Shown here: positions 2,535 to 43,396 of the stretch, in pieces
Layout of the letters: each line of letters starts with the position of its first letter
How positions within the stretch are numbered: the first letter of the stretch is position 1
DNA from: Brevundimonas pondensis
GTDB taxonomy: Bacteria > Pseudomonadota > Alphaproteobacteria > Caulobacterales > Caulobacteraceae
Length of the DNA: 64,000 nt
Direction: 5' to 3'
Assembly: GCF_017487345.1 (NCBI RefSeq)
Contig: NZ_CP062006.1
Location: 3,276,501-3,340,500 of the forward strand
Made by a program: the position numbers and the translations under genes
Notes under the pieces: generated by a model
What the model was told of the DNA's origin: nothing
What the model saw: the letters and a program-made list of their open reading frames with translations, nothing else
The model's database searches: none

Positions 2535-3365
2535 ATGAAGGCTGTTGCATACATCGCTGTCGGCGCGGCCCTGCTCGCCGCCGGAACCGCCGAGGCGCAG
2601 CAGCGCCATGTCCGCCACAACGCCGCTTCGGGTTATGCGCATCAGGCCTACGCCCAGCGCGGCCCCATCGTCGAGAGCCGCGTCCAGACCTGGTACAGCG
2701 ACAGCGGCTGGCAGGGCGGCTACGGACCGGTCGAGGCCTATGGATACGGCTATGGCTACGGCGGCGCCGGCCAGCGCCCGCCCGTGGTCATCGCGCCGCA
2801 GCAGGAACCGATCCGCCACGGCTACGGCTACAGCGGCGTCACCCGCTCCATGCCCTTCGGCTATCCGGTGGACGGCTATGGCCGCTATCCGTGGGCGCGC
2901 GGCTATGGATACGGCCAGGGTCAGTATCAGACATCCTACTATCAGGGCGGCTATGCCCCGGACTGCGGGCGCTGCGGCCCGCCGCCCCAGCCGGTCCACT
3001 ACCGTCCCGAGCCGGTCTATGTGAGCCAGCCCCCGGTCTATGTCTCGCAGCCGCCCGTCTATGTGGAATCGCCGCCGGTCTATGTGCAGCCGGCCCCGGT
3101 CTATATCGAACCGGCCCGCGTCCATGTCTCGCCGCCGCCCGTCTATGTGGCCCCCGCCGATGTCCGCGTCGCCCCGGCCCAGGTCGAGGTCGCCCAGCCT
3201 CAGGTCCATGTCGCTCCGCCGCGCGTCGAGGCCGCGCCCCCGGTCGTCAACTTCGAGCAGGGCTACTACGCTGTTCCCGCGGCGCCGCCGCCCCCGCCTC
3301 CTCCGCCGCACCACAGGTCGCCGACCGAGCGACCCTATATGCAGGAGCCCGGCGAACGGGGCTGA
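2535..3365 (+). CDS. Secreted Pro/Val/Tyr-repeat protein of unknown function
   Basis: The start at ATG 2535 is set by AAGGAG at 2522-2527. A signal peptide is clear (MKAVAYIAVGAALLAAGTAEA, cleaved after AEA, before QQRH). The first half is rich in Tyr and Gly (YGYGYGYGGAG type). Residues about 159-236 are a run of roughly 14 short repeats of the form P-x-V-x-V, mostly PPVYV, drifting to VHV, VRV and VEV. A polyproline block follows. No enzyme domain is seen. The repeat suggests an extended cell-envelope or extracellular protein. The function is unknown. Confidence 0.85.
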   Translation: MKAVAYIAVGAALLAAGTAEAQQRHVRHNAASGYAHQAYAQRGPIVESRVQTWYSDSGWQGGYGPVEAYGYGYGYGGAGQRPPVVIAPQQEPIRHGYGYSGVTRSMPFGYPVDGYGRYPWARGYGYGQGQYQTSYYQGGYAPDCGRCGPPPQPVHYRPEPVYVSQPPVYVSQPPVYVESPPVYVQPAPVYIEPARVHVSPPPVYVAPADVRVAPAQVEVAQPQVHVAPPRVEAAPPVVNFEQGYYAVPAAPPPPPPPPHHRSPTERPYMQEPGERG

Positions 3366-7682: not shown

Positions 7683-9218
7683 TCATTCGGCGGCGATGAT
7701 GGCGGCCTTCACCGCCCCGCGCCAGCCCTTCAGCAATCGCGCCCGTTCCGCCTCGCCCATGCGCGGACGCCAGACAGCGGGGGCCTCGGCGGGCGCAGTC
7801 CACAAGGCCTCAGTCAGGCCGACGCCGAAGGCCGCCAGTCGCGCCGCCCCCATGGCCGTCATCTCCTGAAAGGCCGGTCGTTCGACCTCGACCTCGCAGA
7901 TGTCGGCGACGAACTGCATGGCGAAGGCGTTGGCCGTGACGCCGCCGTCCACCTTGAGCCGCGTCAGCGCCGGCGCGCCATCTTTCGCCAGGGCGTCCAG
8001 CAGGTCGCGGGTCTGATAGGCCAGGCTCTCCAGCGCCGCGCGCACGAAGTGGGCCGGACCGCTGTCGCGGGTCAGGCCAATGACCGTGCCGCGCGCCTCG
8101 GGCTTCCACCAGGGCGCGCCCAGTCCGGTGAAGCCGGGCACCAGATAGACGCCGCCATTGTCCTTCAGCGTCTGGGCCATGGCCTCGGACTGGCGCGAGT
8201 CCGAAATCACCTTCAACCCGTCGCGCAGCCACTGGATCGCCGACCCCGCCGAAAAGATGGAGCCTTCCAGCCCATAGGCGACCTGCCCGTCCGCCGCATA
8301 CCCCAACGTCCCCAGCAGGCGCGAGGTCGAGGCCACCGGCTGATCCCCGACATTGGCCACCAGAAAGGCCCCCGTGCCATAGGTGATCTTGGCGTCCCCG
8401 GCCTTCAGCGCCCCATGCCCGACCAGAGCCGCCTGCTGGTCCCCCGCCGCCCCGTGGATGGGCAGGGCCCGCCCGAACAGGCTGGCGTCGCAGTCGCCCA
8501 GATGATCGGCGCAGCCCCGGATCTCGGGCAGGGCCTGCATCGGCACGCTGAACAGGTCGCACAGGTCCGCGCGCCATTGCAGGGTCTTCAGATCCATCAG
8601 GCTGGTGCGGCTGGCGTTGGTGGCGTCGGTGACGTGGCTCTGCCCGCCGGTCAGCTTCCAGATCAGCCAGGCGTCGATGGTGCCCAGCTTGACCTCGCCC
8701 CGCGCCGCCCGTTCGCGCGCACCGGGCACGGCGTCCAGCAGCCAGGCGTATTTCGAGGCCGAGAAATAGGGATCAAGGATCAGGCCGGTCGCCGCCTGAA
8801 CCTCCGGCTCATGCCCCGCCGCCGCCAGCCGCGCGGTCACGTCCGCCGTGCGTCGGTCCTGCCAGACGACCGCCCGATGCAGCGGCTCGCCGGTCGCCGC
8901 GTCCCAGATGACCGAGGTCTCGCGCTGGTTGGTGATGCCCACGGCGGCGAAGCGGCCGACGCCGCCGGCCTTCCTCACCACCTCGCGACAGGTCTGCAGG
9001 GTCGCGCGCCAGATCTCGGCCGCGTCATGCTCGACCCAGCCGGACTGCGGGAAGTGCTGAGCTAGCTCGATCTGGCTGACGGCCACGGCGCTGAACGCGC
9101 CGCCGCCTCCATTTTTGTCGCCTACCGGGCTTCGCCCTACTTGAGGCGTGACTTCAAACGCAATGGCCCGCGTCGAGGTCGTGCCCTGGTCGATGGCGAG
9201 GATCATGTTCGCTTGCAT
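7683..9218 (-). CDS. glpK: Glycerol kinase with an in-frame repeat-derived insertion
   Basis: This enzyme phosphorylates glycerol to sn-glycerol 3-phosphate using ATP. The FGGY kinase start is MILAIDQGTTSTRA. Substrate motifs include GWVEHDAAEIW, GITNQRETSV and WQDRRT, and the C-terminal ATP-site stretch LKVDGGVTANAF is present. The family normally passes directly from the first strand (AIAFE) to VAVSQIEL. Here about 21 residues, TPQVGRSPVGDKNGGGG plus AFSA (about residues 24-44), are inserted. The first part is encoded by a copy of a palindromic repeat found between genes elsewhere in the window. The reading frame is kept. The start is uncertain between ATG 9218 and ATG 9206; neither has a clear ribosome site. 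Confidence 0.92.
   Translation of the reverse strand: MQANMILAIDQGTTSTRAIAFEVTPQVGRSPVGDKNGGGGAFSAVAVSQIELAQHFPQSGWVEHDAAEIWRATLQTCREVVRKAGGVGRFAAVGITNQRETSVIWDAATGEPLHRAVVWQDRRTADVTARLAAAGHEPEVQAATGLILDPYFSASKYAWLLDAVPGARERAARGEVKLGTIDAWLIWKLTGGQSHVTDATNASRTSLMDLKTLQWRADLCDLFSVPMQALPEIRGCADHLGDCDASLFGRALPIHGAAGDQQAALVGHGALKAGDAKITYGTGAFLVANVGDQPVASTSRLLGTLGYAADGQVAYGLEGSIFSAGSAIQWLRDGLKVISDSRQSEAMAQTLKDNGGVYLVPGFTGLGAPWWKPEARGTVIGLTRDSGPAHFVRAALESLAYQTRDLLDALAKDGAPALTRLKVDGGVTANAFAMQFVADICEVEVERPAFQEMTAMGAARLAAFGVGLTEALWTAPAEAPAVWRPRMGEAERARLLKGWRGAVKAAIIAAE
9121..9147 (-). repeat. Palindromic repeat copy inside glpK
   Basis: On the minus strand it reads GCCTCAAGTAGGGCG then AAGCCCGGTAGG. 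It shares the frame GCCTCAAG...CGGTAGG with intergenic copies such as 50736-50765. The inner arms are complementary but of different sequence (GGGC/GCCC here, GCCC/GGGC there). It lies wholly in coding sequence and is read in frame as part of TPQVGRSPVG. Confidence 0.8.
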
Positions 9219-17746: not shown

Positions 17747-17777
17747 GGCCTCAAGTAGCGCGAATGCGCGATAGGCC
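17747..17777. repeat. Palindromic intergenic repeat, CCTCAAG family
   Basis: The unit reads GGCCTCAAGTAGCGCG then AATGCGCGATAGGCC. The outer arms GGCC/GGCC and inner arms GCGC/GCGC can form a hairpin. It has the same frame as the copy inside glpK. It lies between the PhnA-like gene start and the end of nadE. Confidence 0.75.
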
Positions 17778-21622: not shown

Positions 21623-21724
21623 GGCCTCAAGTAGTGCGAAGCACGATAGGCCCACAGGAAGTGAGCGCGAAGCGCGGTAGGCCCCAGGACACTGGCCTCA
21701 AGCAGCCCGCAAGGGCGGTAGGCC
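21623..21724. repeat. Three tandem palindromic repeats, CCTCAAG family
   Basis: Copies lie at 21623-21652 (GGCCTCAAGTAGTGCG, then AAGCACGATAGGCC), 21656-21685 (degenerate: GAAGTGAGCGCGAAGCGC then GGTAGGCC) and 21694-21724 (GGCCTCAAGCAGCCCGC then AAGGGCGGTAGGCC). The loops and inner arms differ but keep complementarity. They fill the 243-base gap between yciB and the MarR-type gene; no coding sequence is seen there. Confidence 0.8.
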
Positions 21725-43274: not shown

Positions 43275-43321
43275 ATTTTGGTGCGCTAACGGCCTCCGGC
43301 CTGCTTGAGCGCCGAACTAGA

Positions 43322-43351
43322 AACGCCCGCCTCAGCGATGAGGCGGGCGTT
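43322..43351. terminator. Strong hairpin after the lipoprotein gene
   Basis: AACGCCCGCCTC and GAGGCGGGCGTT form a perfect 12-bp stem around AGCGAT. Only a weak pyrimidine stretch follows on either side. It lies between the convergent lipoprotein and DUF6065 genes and may end transcription in both directions. Confidence 0.65.
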
Positions 43352-43366
43352 CCTGTCTGTGATTTC

Positions 43367-43396
43367 GGCCTCAAGTCGCGCGAAGCGCAATAGGCC
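43367..43396. repeat. Palindromic intergenic repeat, CCTCAAG family
   Basis: GGCCTCAAGTCGCGCG then AAGCGCAATAGGCC. It is the same frame as other copies, with CGCG/GCGC inner arms, just beyond the end of the DUF6065 gene. Confidence 0.75.

Follow-up and report, generated by a model that had tools for sequence, protein, structure and literature searches.

The glycerol kinase gene (glpK) of Brevundimonas pondensis raises the question of where the extra codons near its N-terminus come from. We analyzed this gene within a window of 64,000 nucleotides (the window is the whole stretch of DNA under study). A first-pass annotation had proposed that about 21 codons, with no counterpart in the family, are a palindromic intergenic repeat inserted in frame. 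The encoded protein scored 613.5 bits against TIGR01311 (cut-off 590.35) and also matched PF00370 and PF02782; an alternative start is possible at a Met five codons in. The features of the gene are as follows.

7683..9218, minus strand: glpK, glycerol kinase, 511 aa (TIGR01311, PF00370, PF02782)
9099..9149, minus strand: expanded GlpK loop T24-G40, 17 codons (four codons in the nearest relatives; AlphaFold2 pLDDT)
9119..9148, minus strand: REP-like hairpin element inside glpK, read as PQVGRSPVG (repeat matches; filled and empty sites in relatives)
9108..9118, minus strand: probable A-rich tail of the glpK element, GAC AAA AAT GGA (position counts in 178 copies)

A copy of the repeat is present inside glpK, and the reading frame is kept through it, as proposed. 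Its limits had to be corrected: the core lies at 9121-9146 on the minus strand, and the full hairpin of 30 nt is followed by the A-rich tail. The proposed number of extra codons was too high, since the loop of 17 codons replaces one of four codons in the nearest relatives, a net gain of 13. In a BLAST search of the glpK segment against its own genome, the top non-self matches reached 93% over 28 nt (E = 4e-5). An exact repeat pattern gave 10 matches, and the same pattern read backwards gave 4. Furthermore, a model of the own-genome copies found all five copies named by the first-pass annotation elsewhere in the window, together with an additional, diverged one.

17747..17777, plus strand: element copy, 51.4 bits
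21623..21652, plus strand: element copy in an array 12 kb from glpK, 52.1 bits (orthologous arrays in nine relatives)
21694..21724, plus strand: element copy in the same array, 46.9 bits
43283..43312, minus strand: diverged element copy facing the copy at 43367, 30.1 bits (the additional one)
43367..43396, plus strand: element copy, 39.7 bits
50736..50765, plus strand: element copy, 53.2 bits

The two facing copies at 43283-43396 are 54 nt apart; only two other pairs in opposite orientation were seen in this study. The window also holds tandem 21-nt repeats (2990-3234) in apparently coding DNA.

Over the whole genome (3.55 Mb), the search gave 41 element matches with E ≤ 1, of which 35 had E < 0.01; the search model was built from 17 own-genome copies, including that of glpK, and those 17 match by construction. 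Among the 30 copies with scored flanks, 28 were outside convincing coding frames and two were in well-supported ones. Half of the own-genome copy clusters (15/30) lie within 300 kb of glpK (window 9119; G000:C1:3.0-3.55 Mb; binomial P = 3e-5). The dnaA gene is at 1.2 kb of this genome, which places glpK about 266 kb from it, and the element-rich stretch around glpK is probably origin-proximal. At G000:C1:2511282-2511389 (L171 and L174), three copies with a GCGC outer stem recur every 39 nt or so; they fall within an open frame of 228 codons whose coding value is doubtful.

The element forms a hairpin with an outer stem of five pairs, an internal loop (6 × 3), and an inner stem of four pairs capped by a loop of three bases. 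Both stems covary, and the internal loop is nearly constant between copies. Over 15 distinct rows, 99.3% of cells were paired, four of the nine pairs had changes on both sides, and the covariation score (0.292) was reached by none of 500 shuffles. The consensus ends GGCC...GGCC occurred in 150 of 178 copies. In the same 178 copies, positions +4 to +10 after the hairpin are rich in A (39-71%), so the element probably includes the A-rich codons that follow its hairpin in glpK. The hairpin tip GCGAAGC (window 9129-9135, and other copies) is what we take to be an unusually stable DNA mini-hairpin; such a stable tip might help extrusion. An intrinsic terminator was considered and dismissed because the tail is A-rich in the hairpin direction and the T run precedes the hairpin on the opposite strand. 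Rfam gave no identity either: all four matches fell under the gathering score, one of them a weak hammerhead hit that overlapped the element (15.5 bits, E = 3.2).

To compare the site between species, we used the GlpK sequences of relatives. GlpK was detected in 119 of the 121 genomes of the genus sample, and glpK was read in 68 genomes (L040-L069, L310-L347) and in 28 named loci (L070-L097), nearly all of which are titled Brevundimonas or Caulobacterales. Of these 96 rows, three were unusable (L075, L096, L328) and 10 duplicates were removed, leaving 83. The alignment revealed filled and empty sites at one identical loop: the element was present in 13 of the 83 distinct genes, and most others had a short loop there. 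Thus, the statement that the segment has no counterpart holds for most GlpK proteins seen but not for all Brevundimonas. Six relatives have short loop extensions at this site that are unlike the repeat, and among the glpK genes of relatives we saw no case of the same extra residues encoded by unrelated DNA.

Within a clade of 15 species around our genome, six carry the insert and nine are empty, and empty sites occur in genes whose products are 93-96% identical in GlpK (G055, G001, G023, and G026). The number of copies also varied. Among the six, L046 (G089) has two head-to-tail copies, and L054 (G069) has three diverged copies. The other seven carriers, of vesicularis type, belong to a second clade and have a different inner stem (GCGC or derived) at the same place. 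The copies in glpK retain 7 to 9 of the nine stem pairs. In addition, the element peptide pattern was found in 16 of the 120 GlpK N-terminal proteins listed among 6020 database matches, in several loop backgrounds; one of them is named Brevundimonas albigilva.

The AlphaFold2 model of GlpK (27 sequences) had a mean pLDDT of 91, and residues 29-38 fell below 50. The insert falls in the turn that joins strand 15-24 to strand 41-51, where a low-confidence loop is predicted in an otherwise confident fold. The model matches solved glycerol kinases, and the Staphylococcus aureus enzyme has a short turn at this place. The turn is presumably away from the active site. The element peptide in GlpK is most likely tolerated rather than useful.

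A search for the repeat within other coding genes, which the first-pass annotation had suggested, found it in two further enzymes. In our own genome, a flavoprotein of family TIGR00275 (405.7 bits) carries the element in a well-supported coding frame, read as ASSSPKGDRP, which is a different frame from that of glpK. Among 21 genomes, the flavoprotein had the insert in five (own genome, G055, G023, G026, and G089), an altered form in G001, and other loops in 15. By pattern, the 120 database relatives listed included 84 with one copy, 11 with two, three with three, and 22 with none; this list is biased to carriers because the query itself has three copies, and the 22 include some near misses. 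The AlphaFold2 model of the flavoprotein (four sequences) had a mean pLDDT of 29 and was not usable. RibF of G044 carries a 36-nt element insert, G099 has a decayed insert of equal length, and six further loci were empty (eight of 14 loci inspected); on visual comparison of the filled and empty ribF sites, which come from different species, no clear target-site duplication of the kind expected of a MITE was apparent. In glpK, the flavoprotein gene, and ribF alike, the element lies in the sense direction. This is a hint only, because two of three frames of the consensus are open in the antisense direction as well as in the sense direction.

Other database proteins with the element were also seen. 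A DctQ-type protein (P0127, PF04290) has two element peptides as a C-terminal tail, and two proteins with no Pfam domain (P0124 and P0125) have two or three copies. In five flavoproteins (P0165, P0166, P0172, P0201, and P0202), the element peptide is seemingly broken by a further PPGSDQGSARGQAP-like stretch, which may be a second repeat nested within the tip of the hairpin.

The placement of the element over genomes was determined for distinct copies, whose number fell from 208 to 180 (gene context) and then 178 (position counts) through outer-stem, flank, and locus filters. With a crude gene caller of our own, 163 of the 180 copies lay between co-directional (101) or convergent (62) genes, seven lay between divergent genes, four were inside genes, and six had no clear context. 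Close pairs were in the same orientation in 38 of 41 cases and opposite in three; this count used a looser outer-stem filter than that of tandem pitch and hence contains more pairs. Head-to-tail spacing was mostly 8-14 nt, and the 24 close tandem pairs had a pitch of 38-44 nt, a multiple of three in only three of them. Inside genes, where the frame must stay open, the pitch was 36 nt (L046), 42 nt (L054), and 39 nt (flavoproteins). The number of copies per relative genome ranged up to 37 in G089, with none in G088 and G057 (E ≤ 0.001). Among 60 sampled genomes of the family (strict filters, E ≤ 1e-4), five had matches: our own, three congeners (of six sampled from the genus), and a member of another genus whose two matches were weak.

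The empty sites, the one to three copies at the filled sites elsewhere, and the in-frame repeat in at least two other enzymes support, at the level of sequence, that the extra residues of GlpK are a translated repeat. As a whole, the observations are very probably explained by an in-frame copy of a REP-like element of Brevundimonas, which is normally intergenic and has spread and been tolerated in loops. A short sequence in a GC-rich genome may resemble a repeat by chance. Nevertheless, the E value of the own-genome match argues against chance, and an assembly fault is unlikely because the insert recurs in database proteins and in other assemblies, of which G087, G089, and G069 are single-contig; with the filled and empty sites as well, both a chance resemblance and an artefact of sequencing or assembly can be practically dismissed.

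The history of the in-frame element at glpK is less simple. The carriers in the 15-species clade are not monophyletic: their joint grouping was rejected (p-AU = 3.0e-6), and six changes were needed on each of three trees (glpK minus its insert, the flavoprotein gene, and the two genes combined). All six clade carriers have a GGGC/GCCC inner stem (one of the three copies of L054 is mixed), which was found in only five of 178 other copies. Because this rare stem is common to all six, the glpK copies of the clade probably share one source. Apart from glpK, only one copy of G019 and one orthologous array between genes were found to have this stem. The array of this type lies 11-13 kb from glpK (distances from match coordinates) in five of the 10 species inspected, and it is perhaps that common source. 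Against a role of the array as local donor, only G070 and G069 of the five carriers inspected (all but G089) have the GGGC/GCCC type there, whereas our own genome, G087, and G031 are without it. Recombination of the flanks was rejected as the cause of the patchiness, since segments around the insert did not clearly place the carriers nearer to one another than to their sister species. Meanwhile, the third positions of the nine element codons had no differences among five carriers (L054 left out), against a mean of 21.4 in segments of equal length compared without gap alignment, and 11 of 451 segments were as low. At all positions, the same carriers had eight differences against a mean of 33.0 (35/451 as low). 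For the vesicularis-type carriers, there were 28 differences at third positions (mean 36.0; 150/451 as low) and 61 at all positions (mean 47.2). The unchanged third positions of the five carriers favour recent insertion, homogenisation, or constraint, and would not be predicted by neutrality alone if the insert is old. In addition, all nine empty species of the clade have the four-residue ancestral loop without scars, a result hard to obtain by plain deletion.

One old insertion at the base of the clade, followed by many losses or replacement by empty alleles, with the copy of the second clade separate or older still, is to be weighed against these data. It would account for the inner stem shared by the six carriers, for the tracing of this stem to one array and the G019 copy, and for the similar tails (GACAARAATG), but it requires about eight or nine losses (counted by eye on the trees) with the short loop restored each time, and it fits poorly with the identical third positions and with flanks that are not clearly closer among carriers; we consider it a serious candidate with somewhat less than an even chance. 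The same third positions, the rare codons that were retained (GTA 1.3%, CGA 3.3%, and ATA 1.2% of the codons for their amino acid in the glpK set), and the kept stem pairs might instead mean that in-gene copies are useful, as a hairpin in glpK mRNA for stability or translation or as a protein linker. This is unlikely, as most of the close species (9/15) do without the insert, the vesicularis-type element changes as fast as the gene, and conservation in the flavoprotein element is weak (six third-position differences against 20.2; 39/363 segments as low). As for the mover, a GTAG-type REP whose RAYT (REP-associated tyrosine transposase) has recently disappeared would fit the size, hairpin, and gene-end position, GTAG does occur inside the sequence (CAAGTAG, GGTAGG), and loss of RAYTs in some species is on record (PMC3733652). 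However, the Y1 transposase domain PF01797 had no match in our genome or in any of 25 relatives, one of which has as many as 37 element copies, despite a positive control in Caulobacter vibrioides, and the element has no terminal GTAG and pairs mostly in one orientation where such REPs form opposite-orientation dimers; this makes a lost RAYT improbable. A more far-reaching possibility, at rather long odds, is a hairpin element without recognisable transposase that copies itself locally, from arrays to nearby genes, and by which the same enzyme loops are repeatedly filled and emptied.

For the in-frame REP-like element as a whole, we propose that it would spread by a trans-acting or replication-linked process with head-to-tail pile-up, and that selection would remove most in-gene insertions. 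The surviving copies would be those that keep the frame in tolerant loops, here the turn of GlpK described above. The earlier suggestion that the repeat is mobile and can be tolerated within a protein is supported by the filled and empty sites with 0-3 copies as far as tolerance is concerned; mobility we infer from the patchy occupancy of sites, with no mover found and no live transposition seen.

REPs often exceed 100 copies per genome. Like them, the Brevundimonas element is a palindrome of 20-40 bp in many copies with conserved pairing, mostly at co-directional or convergent sites, but unlike many REPs it has fewer than 100 copies per genome. The REPs of the GTAG/CGTC super-family are described as 20-40 bp long and mostly near the ends of convergent or co-directional genes, and they also occur within genes of free-living bacteria as singles, dimers, or groups in frame; in recB of Xanthomonas, about the same REP site is used in two species (PMC3733652). 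The small palindrome, the gene-end placement, and some in-gene in-frame copies are thus alike. The element differs in the internal loop, the head-to-tail arrays instead of mainly opposite-orientation dimers, the lack of a terminal tag (GTAG is only internal), and the negative PF01797 search in our genome and 25 relatives, where a RAYT-mobilised REP would flank such a gene. The comparison with Rickettsia palindromic elements (RPEs) made by the first-pass annotation is fair, since RPEs are described as palindromic repeats in frame in unrelated metabolic genes, in several frames (PMC10969869), and our element was inserted in frame in the unrelated glpK, flavoprotein, and ribF genes, in different frames. 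This likeness is one of description, and we do not class the element as an RPE: RPEs are about 150 bp (PMC10969869), and the Brevundimonas element is 30 nt plus the tail. RPE-4 and RPE-6 of R. conorii have been assigned to the CGTC class (PMC3733652). The free-living setting is true here, but the idea is not new, because PMC3733652 already describes REPs in genes of free-living species. The enterobacterial RU-1 to RU-3 are also small mobile repeats with open frames that occur inside annotated genes, and they are 103-168 bp long (PMC2759123). Among titles and abstracts of openly licensed literature on palindromic, extragenic, or interspersed repeats of Brevundimonas, we found no description of the element. 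The CcrM-associated intergenic repeats (CIR) of Caulobacter, a related genus, are longer than 100 bp. They are described as strictly intergenic (PMC10969869), unlike the Brevundimonas element. Three things set the element apart: the same loops are used repeatedly and hold from 0 to 3 in-frame copies, the hairpin is of an unusual form, and no mover is known.

Brevundimonas is free-living and culturable, and its close species have anywhere from none to three in-frame copies of the element at a single loop of a well-studied enzyme. The old question of whether proteins draw on palindromic repeats as raw material, neutral or useful, can therefore be put to a direct test outside obligate intracellular bacteria, and the filled and empty sites are a starting point toward finding the mover. 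If local copying without a recognisable transposase is true, sister species would differ in disordered in-frame segments of 0 to 3 units, and the element would be a standing source of loop diversity in the housekeeping enzymes of a free-living genus.
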